64,000 bases of DNA, from contig NZ_PCPR01000001.1 in assembly GCF_002979775.1 (NCBI RefSeq), positions 310,001 to 374,000 of the forward strand, in the 5' to 3' direction. The translations under genes and the position numbers were made by a program. This document shows, piece after piece, positions 501-15,574 of this stretch. The stretch is from Arthrobacter sp. MYb23. Lineage in GTDB: Bacteria > Actinomycetota > Actinomycetes > Actinomycetales > Micrococcaceae. The notes below the pieces were generated by a model. The model was not told the origin of the DNA. It worked only from the letters and a program-made list of their open reading frames with translations, and did not search any database. Numbering within the stretch: the stretch's first letter is position 1; the number at the start of each line of letters is the position of its first letter.

Positions 501-713
501 CTAGACGCGCCCCTTGATGATGGCAGCAATCAGTTCTTTGCTGCAGCCAACAGCAGCGGCCAAGGCGCCATAGGACCACCGGACGGGATCCTCTTGGCGT
601 GCGCGTCGTATGAATGCATCCCGCTGCTGCCGATGCCTTTCCGCGAGCGCAAGGGCATCGGCAGCGCGTCGGTGATGCTCGCGTGCCTGTTGAATGCTTG
701 AGTCAGATGACAC
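501..713 (-). CDS. Small helix-turn-helix protein coupled to Ro60
   Basis: A 70-residue protein starting at GTG 713, which overlaps the last codons of the Ro60 gene by 11 nt, so translation is probably coupled. The N-terminal half is a charged, Arg/Ala/Gln-rich helix (about residues 5-45). The C-terminal part, WSYGALAAAVGCSKELIAAI, has the spacing of a helix-turn-helix, as in small DNA-binding proteins. I do not recognise a named family. Its position as second gene of the Ro60 transcription unit suggests a role linked to Ro60 or its RNAs, either as a regulator or an RNA-binding accessory. That is inference from context. No other start codon in frame gives a better fit. Confidence 0.55.
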   Translation of the reverse strand: MSSDSSIQQAREHHRRAADALALAERHRQQRDAFIRRARQEDPVRWSYGALAAAVGCSKELIAAIIKGRV

Positions 714-2331
714 GGGCCGAAAAGTCGCTCAGCAATGTGGGCAACGATGCATCGAATCCAGCAATGTCCAGCATGCCCGGATCGGAGGGGTCGGCCACGG
801 TGAAGTCTGTGGCCGTCAAGCCAACCACAGCTAGCCGGGCATCGATTCCGGACCAATCCCGGTACCTGCGCAAAGCTTCGTGTGGATGAATCCGGCCAGC
901 CCAGGTTTCGTTGTCGGTGTAGATGACAAACGTGTCCACCTTGACCTTGTTTGCTGCAGCCCACAGCATCGGCAACGCACAGTCCGTCCCGCCGAAAGGC
1001 AGCCCGGAGATGGTGTTCAGCACGTCATCAAGCCTCTGCCTTGAGGAAATGGGCAGCGGCGAGATCCCATCCAACGGCACGTTGCGCTGGAACAATCCCT
1101 TCCTGGCACTGCTCGAGTTGGACGTGAAGCCAAGGGTAGTGGTCTTCGGCTCCGTTGCGGCTGTCACCAGGGCCATCGCTGCCGAAACTTCCCGGGCTGT
1201 GATGGGCAACCCCGAGACTGGCATGGTCATTGAACCCGAGACGTCCAAGGCAAGCAACGTCCGCTTGTTTGCCGGCGTTACGGTAGCAAAGGACGCGTAG
1301 AAGGCAGCATCCAGGGCATCCACTACCTGTCCCGCCGGTTCCCACGAGGACTTTCCACGCGCAGAGGTACCAGAGGCGTAGGTGCGGGCAGCCACCAGGA
1401 CGTTGACGGGGTGCACCCGGGCCTTCTGCAACCTGGTGCTGTCCGTGAGCTGGCGAGTGACGGCGTCGAGCGTTTCAGACATGGGCGCGAGAAGGCCAAG
1501 GCGCGTCAGCCGCGGTAGCTGCCGCATCAGTGCCGTCTGCGGGATGCCGTTGTCCAGAAGCTTCGACCAAACAGCCGGTTCCCGGAGGGCAGCGTCGGGC
1601 AGCATCTCCCATGACAACTGATGGTAGTCATCCAGGAGTGCAACCCATTCCGTGGGCTTGGTGGCCACCTGCGCCTTCTCGAATCCTTCAACGATCAGTG
1701 GGCCATCAGTTCCACGGCCGCAGATCCAGTCGAAGAGCTGCTTCCGGTCAGCCTCTGTAGTTGAGGGGTGCGCAAGGCGTAGAAGATCCTTGTGCGTCCA
1801 GCCTCCGCGCTGCCTGTACTTCACAGCCTGGTAGGCCACCTCATCCACCGGCTTGGACAGGTACCAGTCAGCCACTGCCCGGCGCAGACCGCGGCCCCAA
1901 CCCCGGAACTGCTCAACATAGCCAGCGAAAAGGAACAGATGGGTTCCGGTGCGGGCCACCTTGGACAGTGCAGCCAAGGCAGCCTGCCGGCCGCCCGGAT
2001 CTCCCAGAGCCGTGGCAGCTGCCAGGCAGAACAGTGCCGGGTTGTTCCGTGGTGCTCGCCCGCCCGCGGAAATCGCGACGACTTCGTCCACAAGTTCGGC
2101 GGTCCTCTCACGAGCCCATCCGAGAACAACTTCGGCGTTTTCCACCGTCAGGGCGTGTTCGGATCCGTAGTAAGTGCCGCCGTCGGTGCCGAGCACCAGA
2201 AAGCGGCGCAGGCGTTCCAAAGGCGCCACAGTGAAGGCATGACCGCCAGCGTTGTTGGGAACCTGGCGGGAATCGGAGGGCTGCGACTGGGGCGTAGCCC
2301 GTAGGTTAATTGCGCTTAGTGCATCGGCCAC
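703..2331 (-). CDS. rsr: Ro60 / TROVE-domain RNA-binding protein (Rsr)
   Basis: Bacterial orthologue of the Ro60 autoantigen, a ring-shaped protein that binds Y RNAs and works in RNA surveillance and decay with exoribonucleases. From the GTG at 2331 it is 542 residues. The TROVE region covers about residues 1-330 and includes RQVPNNAGG and GWGRGLRRAVADWY. A von Willebrand A domain follows, with the metal-site motif DVSGSM at 363-368, a GGTD loop and YTDNETW. The start is chosen because GGGAGG lies 6 nt before GTG 2331 and because related proteins begin close to the ADALSAIN segment. The longer frame from ATG 2403 would add 24 residues encoded by the D-arm and 3' stem of the upstream Y-like RNA. 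The gene follows two such RNAs and is coupled to a small HTH gene downstream. Confidence 0.93.
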   Translation of the reverse strand: MADALSAINLRATPQSQPSDSRQVPNNAGGHAFTVAPLERLRRFLVLGTDGGTYYGSEHALTVENAEVVLGWARERTAELVDEVVAISAGGRAPRNNPALFCLAAATALGDPGGRQAALAALSKVARTGTHLFLFAGYVEQFRGWGRGLRRAVADWYLSKPVDEVAYQAVKYRQRGGWTHKDLLRLAHPSTTEADRKQLFDWICGRGTDGPLIVEGFEKAQVATKPTEWVALLDDYHQLSWEMLPDAALREPAVWSKLLDNGIPQTALMRQLPRLTRLGLLAPMSETLDAVTRQLTDSTRLQKARVHPVNVLVAARTYASGTSARGKSSWEPAGQVVDALDAAFYASFATVTPANKRTLLALDVSGSMTMPVSGLPITAREVSAAMALVTAATEPKTTTLGFTSNSSSARKGLFQRNVPLDGISPLPISSRQRLDDVLNTISGLPFGGTDCALPMLWAAANKVKVDTFVIYTDNETWAGRIHPHEALRRYRDWSGIDARLAVVGLTATDFTVADPSDPGMLDIAGFDASLPTLLSDFSARVI

Positions 2332-2348
2332 AGTGATCCTCCCATAGG

Positions 2349-2500
2349 TGAAAGTGGCGGCGGGCATGTTTGTGAGTCCCGGGATGCCCAACGCTCTATC
2401 CATCTGAGCTACCGGAGCGTACTCCGGGCGGGATTCGAACCCGCCACCTTTGGGTCCTTAACAGAGGTAACCGAATCTCTCCGGCCCGCCGCCACTTTCA
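2349..2500 (-). ncRNA. yrlA: YrlA-type Y RNA with permuted tRNA-like module (proximal copy)
   Basis: Read 5' to 3' on the minus strand. A perfect 17-bp terminal helix pairs 2500-2484 with 2365-2349. Just inside the 5' strand are GGGCCGG (2487-2481) and TCGGTTA (2474-2468). A T-arm follows at 2444-2428 (5-bp stem, loop TTCGAAT), then an acceptor-like hairpin of 6 bp closed by a TACG loop (2427-2412), then a D-arm at 2409-2393 (stem GCTC/GAGC, loop AGATGGATA with the GG pair). CAAACATG (2372-2365) leads into the 3' strand. T-arm, acceptor and D-arm are in tRNA-like form but in permuted order, as described for YrlA RNAs, whose outer stem binds Ro60. The RNA sits in the leader of the Ro60 gene; its 3' end lies 6 nt from the Ro60 Shine-Dalgarno. 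Exact ends are inferred from the helix. Confidence 0.85.
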
Positions 2501-2507
2501 GTTTCAT

Positions 2508-2624
2508 GTGAGTGGACATGTTTGATAACCGCCGGATCTCTTACTGCCACGATAAATCGAAGCAGCAAGGGCAGGGATCGAACCTGCTTTATACCAGTTA
2601 ACCGACAGTTCCCGGCCCACTCAC
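2508..2624 (-). ncRNA. Second Y-like RNA, diverged YrlA relative (distal copy)
   Basis: About 117 nt on the minus strand, ending 7 nt before the proximal RNA. Terminal helix: GTGAGTGG (2624-2617) with CCACTCAC (2515-2508), extendable by G-U and C-G. It shares with its neighbour GGGCCGG (2618-2612) and TCGGTTA (2605-2599) on the 5' side and CAAACATG (2524-2517) just before the 3' strand. The T-arm is at 2587-2571 (GCAGG/CCTGC, loop TTCGATC). A 7-bp acceptor-like stem pairs 2568-2562 with 2547-2541, with a longer loop than the first copy. The D-arm is poor: only a 3-bp GAT/ATC stem at 2538-2524 around a loop containing GG. The shared motifs argue that both bind Ro60; the weak D-arm suggests a different or lost effector-binding surface. 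It is probably transcribed together with the proximal copy. Confidence 0.72.
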
Positions 2625-2632
2625 TAATAGGA

Positions 2633-2648
2633 GTGTAATGCATTACAC
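2633..2648. promoter_or_regulatory. Perfect 16-bp palindrome upstream of the Y RNAs
   Basis: GTGTAATGCATTACAC is a perfect inverted repeat 9 nt before the inferred 5' end of the distal Y RNA. On the minus strand TACACT (right arm of the palindrome plus two bases) lies 7 nt before that 5' end and could be the -10 element, so a protein bound here would block transcription. A GC-rich inverted repeat at 2647-2664 (CACCCC/GGGGTG) lies next to it and may end the cupin transcript. No candidate regulator is obvious apart from the small HTH protein downstream of Ro60. Confidence 0.5.
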
Positions 2649-4413: not shown

Positions 4414-4782
4414 TTAAGACCGGTCGTGAAGAGTCACGTGATAGCCGTCAGGATCGGCGAAGGTGAAGGTGCGTCCGAATGGACCGTCAATGGGCGCCGT
4501 GATGATTGTGTGTCCGTCGCCGACCAATGCGTCATGGATGGCTTGGACATCAGTGGCGTGCAGCCAGATCGCGGCGCCGATTCCCGGCTGATCAACGGAC
4601 GTCAGGTCCGTCCCGGGAGCGATGGTGCGGAGCGCGAAGGCGATCGGCTTCGTGTCGAACACGACGGCGTGGGGCGGCCCTGCTTGCGAGCGGACAAGGC
4701 CGAGGTACTGCTCGTAGAACGCTTGGGACGCGTCGAGGTCGCGCGCTTGGAGTGAGATGAAGTCGGGGCCGGTGACGGGCAT
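4414..4782 (-). CDS. VOC-fold (glyoxalase/bleomycin-resistance type) protein
   Basis: 122 residues, a complete single VOC module. It starts MPVTGPDFISLQARDLDASQAFYEQYLGL and ends with the typical GRTFTFADPDGYHVTLHD. Proteins of this fold work as dimers and bind a metal or a small toxic molecule; the role is often a lyase, dioxygenase or drug-binding protein. The start at 4782 is preceded by GGAGCAT. It is divergent from a MarR regulator, and two matching palindromes lie in the 62 bp between them, so it is very likely repressed by that protein and induced by its ligand. Confidence 0.85.
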   Translation of the reverse strand: MPVTGPDFISLQARDLDASQAFYEQYLGLVRSQAGPPHAVVFDTKPIAFALRTIAPGTDLTSVDQPGIGAAIWLHATDVQAIHDALVGDGHTIITAPIDGPFGRTFTFADPDGYHVTLHDRS

Positions 4783-15357: not shown

Positions 15358-15574
15358 TAGGGAAGTGATAGAGCGTTCCACCCAAGCCCGAGGGAAGTGA
15401 TAGAGCGTCCGACCCAAGCCCGAGGGAAGTGATAGAGCGTCCGACCCAAGCCCTAGGGAAGTGATAGAGGGACCCGCTCAAGCCCTAGGGAAGTGATAGA
15501 GGGACCCGCTCAAGCCCTAGGGAAGTGATAGAGGGACCCGCTCAAGCCCTTGGGATGTGAGAGAGCGTGCGGGG
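15358..15574. repeat. Tandem array of 32-bp units
   Basis: Six full 32-bp units (starts at 15358, 15390, 15422, 15454, 15486, 15518) followed by a degenerate seventh at about 15550. Each contains GGGAAGTGATAGAG and ends in AAGCCC. Two sub-types occur: units 1-3 have GCGTCCGACCC (or a close variant) in the second half, units 4-6 have GGACCCGCTC and are identical to each other, so the array grew by recent copying of neighbours. It lies downstream of the minus-strand E2 gene and continues almost to its stop at 15575. There are no unique spacers. The rest of the gap from 15150 to 15357 holds a GCGGGCC/GGCCCGC hairpin near 15314-15340 and nothing else. Confidence 0.9.

Follow-up and report, generated by a model that had tools for sequence, protein, structure and literature searches.

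A putative Y RNA-Ro60 operon in Arthrobacter: the start of rsr behind two predicted Y RNAs, and an operator-like palindrome that keeps company with a small HTH gene

The window analysed here is a 64-kb stretch of DNA from Arthrobacter sp. MYb23. Near one of its ends, on the minus strand, an orthologue of the Ro60 gene (rsr) is preceded by two predicted Y RNAs and followed by a short gene for a putative helix-turn-helix (HTH) protein. In the order of transcription the features are as follows:

2634..2647, no strand assigned: operator-like palindrome TGTAATGCATTACA, of the form TGTA-N6-TACA, 7 nt before the distal Y RNA
2506..2626, minus strand: predicted distal Y RNA, with terminal helix, T-arm and a degenerate tRNA-like part (45.1 bits, E 2.1e-7 with covariance model R1, see below)
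2349..2500, minus strand: predicted proximal Y RNA, with a 17-bp helix (core R1 match 2495-2354, 111.2 bits, E 1.1e-20)
2401..2403, minus strand: first codon of the longest ORF, an ATG that falls in the proximal Y RNA's D-loop; not accepted as a start
2365..2367, minus strand: second in-frame ATG, within the motif CAAACATG beside the terminal helix; not accepted as a start
2338..2343, minus strand: Shine-Dalgarno sequence GGGAGG, 6 nt before GTG 2331, kept in the two same-genus loci L165 and L166
703..2331, minus strand: rsr (Ro60 orthologue), GTG start, 542 aa, with TROVE and vWA_Ro60 domains; the starts of its homologues agree
501..713, minus strand: small HTH gene, start GTG 713, 70 aa, sharing 11 nt with the 3' end of rsr; putative regulator of the operon

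The longest ORF at rsr runs from ATG 2403 to 703 and would encode 566 aa, with ATG 2367 and GTG 2331 in the same frame. Its product is over the Pfam cut-offs for TROVE (146.8 bits, cut-off 23, E 1.4e-42) and vWA_Ro60 (205.6 bits, cut-off 27.7, E 6.2e-61). The alignment to the NCBIfam model NF041674 (RNA-bind_Rsr equivalog) is full-length at 516.6 bits, under the curated cut-off of 900, and the protein is classed as a TROVE protein, not as an NF041674 equivalog.

The two elements before rsr are almost certainly Y RNAs, to judge from their predicted folds and from comparison with other loci. The terminal helix of the proximal element is made of 17 contiguous perfect pairs (2500-2484 with 2365-2349, placed by counting) and encloses a T-arm, an acceptor-like arm and a D-arm. 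No Rfam family matches the Y RNA region at its gathering score. YrlA, RF02553, comes up with a sub-threshold 47.5 bits at 2452-2389 (gathering score 69), and a separate covariance model, R1, was therefore built from 28 Y units chosen out of 46 qualifying ones, all from other loci and none from the window. With this model the elements are classed as actinobacterial Y RNA and not as RF02553. Only two R1 matches at E up to 1 are found in the 64-kb window, at 2495-2354 and 2626-2506, both on the minus strand.

The R1 alignment has a consensus of 29 pairs, with 97.7% of the cells paired and double changes in 17 of the pairs, which none of 500 shuffles equalled; its helices hold 137 cells with double changes, against a shuffle mean of 42 and at most 30 in slid versions. 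The rule by which units were picked demanded the terminal helix, TTCGA and the D-arm motif, which accounts for some of the conservation seen in them. The acceptor-like helix, which was not part of the rule, shows double changes in six out of six pairs, and the D-arm stem is invariant and carries no covariation information. Thus the broad features of bacterial Y RNAs are found here: terminal helix, T-, acceptor- and D-arm, covariation (except in the D-arm) and an adjoining rsr.

A regular expression combined with a helix rule (at least 7 pairs) recovered units in 69 of 147 listed loci and none in 205,800 nt of rsr coding sequence. When R1 was run over 55 loci (391,870 bases; 53 of the 55 loci L004-L058, plus L165 and L166), it gave 136 matches at E 0.01. 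All 132 matches in the 53 named actinobacterial loci sit before rsr, and every one of these 53 listed loci has one to four units; unit counts cover loci with at least 250 nt upstream, that is, without L008 and L027 among L004-L058. Y RNA-like R1 matches elsewhere in the genus and order were set aside as weak, and in two that were inspected no Ro60 was recognised in ORFs of at least 150 aa. One such match recurs at 31 bits over model positions 13-103 (G000:C7:38122-38259, alike in many genomes) and is perhaps a tRNA-type sequence.

Upstream of the distal Y RNA lies a 16-nt perfect palindrome, GTGTAATGCATTACAC. The pattern TGTARYGCRYTACA occurs in one place only in the 5.19 Mb genome, namely at this candidate operator, and the palindrome is kept in both same-genus rsr loci (L165 and L166). 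In 17 of the 53 listed loci a TGTA-N5-7-TACA sequence, with N6 every time, is found in the 80 nt that precede the first Y unit, the expectation being 0.0023 per such stretch. Elsewhere in the same 53 listed loci the TGTA-N5-7-TACA pattern is found 11 times in 378,378 nt, and nine of these 11 sites are again in the Y RNA leader. TTGAC precedes the palindrome by 7 or 16 nt in 9 of 28 cases, the window's own being without such a TTGAC; in our reading, this spacing would place the operator over the promoter hexamers or next to them, a position typical of repressor sites.

Relatives of the small HTH gene occupy the same place behind rsr in many listed loci, and their presence follows that of the palindrome. 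Among loci with at least 300 nt upstream and 400 nt downstream, the 52 listed actinobacterial ones have both operator and HTH gene in 24 cases, the operator only in one, the HTH gene only in none and neither in 27, so this type of control is not universal. The corresponding numbers are 9, 1, 3 and 53 for 66 listed viral loci, and 1, 0, 0 and 23 for 24 other listed genome loci. The sole actinobacterial operator-only locus is L004, yet an HTH gene is found there at 4631, the rsr match ending at 4638. This locus, from a metagenome assembly, is the nearest relative beyond the genus set (78%), and its rsr frame is cut at 222 aa. In the operator-only viral locus L087 the HTH gene is 917 nt away; the three HTH-only viral loci have the gene within 700 nt and no operator, and a fourth viral locus, L102, has the gene at 739 nt.

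Operator and HTH gene also change together in the course of Ro60 evolution. On a tree of 74 Ro60 proteins (without viral loci L105-L163 other than L130, L131 and L161, all of L059-L083, and L004) the operator and HTH traits change many times (10 and 12, respectively), and the tree offers 8 independent pairs with a difference in the operator, of which on average 7.6 differ in the HTH gene in the same direction and none in the opposite one (median p 0.008). Gordonia phage Cashline and Mycobacterium phage Farewell, which were not in the seed under those records, resemble the window in having a small gene that matches the HTH model behind Ro and TGTA-N6-TACA upstream of it. Within the genus, the whole HTH gene is confined to the three rsr genomes among 204, and two others retain a piece of 34-36 residues. 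Operator and HTH gene thus appear to be co-inherited, as expected of an autoregulating HTH operon. The residue that follows GCS in the protein tracks base 5 of the palindrome (G with R in 16 of 20, A with P or K in 9 of 10, C with P in 4 of 7), which is suggestive but confounded by descent.

The HTH protein probably acts at the TGTA-N6-TACA site. In an AlphaFold2 model (mean pLDDT 95.9) the 70-aa chain forms a long helix at 3-41, followed by the two HTH helices at 48-55 and 59-67. The commonest Pfam match of the family is MRP-L20, a mitochondrial ribosomal protein, to which 25 of the 30 members examined show a match at E 0.01, the best of them at 3.3e-8; the protein of L031 is over the cut-off (34.3 vs 30.4), and that of the window is under it (23.6). 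HTH_31 is matched in 8 of the 30 members, HTH_23 in 5 and HTH_11 in some, all weakly, and the window protein has below-cut-off matches to both MRP-L20 and HTH_31. No NCBIfam or PHROG match was found for the small protein, and no PDB fold match at E 0.001; its weak fold matches are led by mitoribosome chains (the best at E 0.75) and by Lrp/AsnC-type regulators. The MRP-L20 matches lower our confidence in an HTH protein working at the operator, and they are, together with the mitoribosome chains, what speaks for a protein that binds RNA or the ribosome, the palindrome being left to another factor. We consider this unlikely, because the near-perfect co-occurrence of the gene with a DNA palindrome across hosts and phages, to which the weak HTH matches may be added, favours DNA binding.

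The locus can be read as one operon, to which we assign a probability of about 0.78: an operator and promoter at 2647-2634, the distal and proximal Y RNAs, rsr from GTG 2331, and the HTH gene. As far as sequence and comparison go, the start, the two Y RNA folds, their adjacency to rsr and the fact that operator and HTH gene go together across loci are established; it is quite likely that a single transcript from an operator-controlled promoter carries the Y RNAs and rsr. The Y RNAs would be trimmed from this shared transcript, the HTH protein would bind TGTA-N6-TACA, most likely as a repressor, and Y RNAs and Ro60 would be made together on demand. No terminator-like or sigma-70-like site was found in 2200-2800 of the window. 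Co-transcription thus stays plausible, and so does the idea that the rsr mRNA is affected when the Y RNAs are processed; the lack of a sigma-70-like site, on the other hand, also counts against the operon reading. If the operator-HTH pair works in this way, it would offer a handle on what turns Ro60 particles on in these bacteria and phages.

Division of the locus into separate transcription units, with an rsr promoter inside or after the Y RNA, seems improbable. It would suit L011, where the palindrome is between the Y unit and rsr, 43 nt before the start, and altogether nine listed loci, L011 included, in which the palindrome is inside the leader and not before the first unit. The window itself speaks against it: its single palindrome comes before both Y RNAs, and nothing resembling a promoter was found between them and rsr.

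A Y RNA beside the ribosome site appears to be a general layout in actinobacteria: the last unit ends 22-55 nt before the rsr start in 41 of the 53 listed actinobacterial loci and 62-303 nt before it in the other 12. The same layout offers a simple way to find Y RNAs in Actinomycetota. In the window the terminal helix ends 5 nt before GGGAGG, or 6 nt when its final T-A pair is left out, in line with the earlier note, which had put the distance at 6 nt and raised the idea that Ro60, by binding this helix, may act on its own translation or on processing of the RNA. Sitting on the helix in its own message, Ro60 would keep the ribosome off or change how the RNA is cleaved. According to passages of two papers, the lower stem of bacterial Y RNAs is the Ro60 site (PMC4726728, PMC8394870), and binding of this stem by Ro60 orthologues (PMC4726728) would, with the widespread adjacency, fit such feedback. 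Against it, the gap between helix end and Shine-Dalgarno sequence ranges from 6 to 44 nt over 45 listed loci (6 in the window by the same rule), with no fixed distance evident, and 12 of the 53 loci have 62-303 nt between last unit and start. Feedback by Ro60 on its own translation is therefore doubtful, and the transcriptional loop through the HTH protein has much better comparative support.

One may still combine the two, as a tentative generalization: many Ro60 loci of actinobacteria and actinophages would be self-contained operons made of a tandem Y RNA leader, Ro60 and a small HTH repressor that binds TGTA-N6-TACA at the Y RNA promoter and may come off in response to RNA or DNA damage; the complex of Ro60 and the last Y RNA would add a second, local control on Ro60 translation.

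A second candidate for translational control was a predicted hairpin at 2273-2343 on the minus strand, common to the three genus genomes, in which GGGAGG is paired with CCCTCC of codons 18-19. The unpaired probability of the window's Shine-Dalgarno sequence is 0.002 (RNAfold), a value as low in only 2 of 98 genes of the same genome, rsr included, and the pairing is predicted in L165 and L166 too. Striking as it is in the window, the hairpin was rejected as a conserved device after background tests, and we hold its control of rsr translation to be very improbable. The fold energy is ordinary against shuffles (z -0.74); mean unpaired probability over 47 rsr loci is 0.48, compared to 0.45 in synonymous shuffles, so there is no trend, which likewise lends no support to translational feedback by Ro60; and 4 of the 47 loci, the window and L165 among them, reach the 5% tail. 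A scarcity of synonymous differences at the 5' end was also dropped as a signal, since no change at all is seen there in 8 of 61, 9 of 50 and 7 of 60 genes in the three genome pairs; 4 of 47 genes have none in all three pairs.

The start of rsr itself is at GTG 2331 with near certainty, and ATGs 2403 and 2367 are best understood as bases of the proximal Y RNA and not as start codons. The earlier note had proposed as much, and each of its grounds held up. ATG 2403, which opens the longest ORF, is inside the D-loop (D-arm AGCTC...GAGC) of an element that an independent covariance model supports; ATG 2367 is inside CAAACATG at the terminal helix, whose 3' strand begins with the G of this codon. 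When all in-frame starts were listed, no Shine-Dalgarno-like match was found before either ATG, while GTG 2331 has GGGAGG 6 nt upstream and coincides with the place where related Ro60 proteins begin in tblastn, 2nvo and NF041674 alignments.

The alignment of Ro60 N-termini that the note had suggested as a check agrees: homologues begin at GTG 2331, not in the extension. Tblastn with the GTG form of the protein reached at least 80 genome contigs and at least 80 viral contigs; among the matches listed, 64 of the 80 in genomes and 35 of the 80 in viruses begin at residue 1-3. Of the 156 listed loci with an assigned start, 131 have it no more than one residue away from GTG 2331; the start codon is ATG in 139 of the 156, GTG in 15 and TTG in 2, with a Shine-Dalgarno match in 146 and none in 10. 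The assignment took the best Shine-Dalgarno match within -15 to +6 residues and is biased towards codons that bear one; L140, L141, L149 and L162, where the match begins after residue 30, and L073, with no start found, are not in this count. The alignment with D. radiodurans Rsr (2nvo) starts at residue 7 of that protein and residue 28 of the 566-aa form, which leaves it no more than six residues to set against the 24 of the extension. In the NF041674 alignment, residues 1-539 of the rsr product span model positions 1-528, residue 1 on position 1.

The best test comes from the same-genus relatives. L165 (genome G326) and L166 (G298), with rsr matches at 94% and 92%, share the GTG and GGGAGG with the window. 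Both ATGs are retained in L165; both are lost in L166, where 2403 reads ATT and 2367 reads ACG, and the sole in-frame start codon remaining upstream is a TTG at -60. Conservation of the extension as protein, which the earlier note had named as evidence against its view, is absent: between the window and L166 it has mostly amino-acid changes (5.5 nonsynonymous and 2.5 synonymous differences in 24 codons, none in the first 24 codons from GTG), with pN 0.103 and pS 0.134, compared to 0.040 and 0.392 for the whole gene. L165 and L166 differ in it by 6.5 nonsynonymous and 3.5 synonymous changes. The window and L165 differ by 2 and 3, a pair that alone would not decide, the extension there being not evidently unconstrained. 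Across 46 listed loci the 3' motif of the Y unit is in all three frames relative to rsr (15, 18 and 13), and 20 of 41 listed loci have an in-frame stop within the adjacent unit or between it and rsr.

That a longer protein is made from ATG 2403, as main form or isoform, is extremely improbable: the frame is open and L165 shares the ATG, but the codon is ATT in L166, no ribosome site precedes it, 2nvo has no counterpart, changes against L166 are not restrained at the protein level, and the added residues are a readout of a tRNA-like D-arm and helix. Calling genes by the longest frame would here produce a false Ro60 N-terminus out of a Y RNA, and hide the RNA.

Known systems resemble the window in part. 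According to the portions of the literature covered, DrY, Salmonella YrlA and M. smegmatis Yrl (RF02553) likewise have a terminal helix, T-, acceptor-like and D-arms and an adjoining rsr. The window falls short of the RF02553 gathering score, and the last of the units in the listed actinobacterial loci usually abuts the rsr ribosome site. Passages of two papers describe a Salmonella rsr-yrlBA-rtcBA operon controlled by RtcR, an activator with a divergent CARF domain (PMC7790460, PMC8394870), and within these passages control of an rsr operon is described for Salmonella RtcR only. Ro60 and Y RNAs are thus in one regulated operon there (PMC7790460), as we infer for the window; in Salmonella, however, the Y RNAs come after rsr and RtcR is the regulator, whereas in the window they come before rsr and a small HTH gene stands behind it. 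In Listeria phage CKA15, as described in part of another paper (PMC12282133), an Rsr-like gene precedes the gene for a predicted transcriptional regulator; Y RNAs were only suspected there by the authors. Neither the operator and HTH gene nor translational feedback by Ro60 is mentioned in the titles and abstract openings of the literature searched.

The presence of rsr in the genus of the window is patchy. It is found in 3 of 206 genomes (the window's own, G326 and G298), a fourth match being a weak fragment. Movement of the cassette between sites in the three genomes was considered and dropped, as G326 aligns with the window on both flanks; in G298 the rsr-side flank aligns with the window, and the other side does so again only from window position 15573 on. 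Two more loci, L290 and L291 (in G355 and G396; roughly 3.1 kb each), have no R1 match and no Ro60 match below E 0.2, and contain pieces of the HTH protein, 34-35 residues long at about 91% identity, which may be relics of a lost operon.
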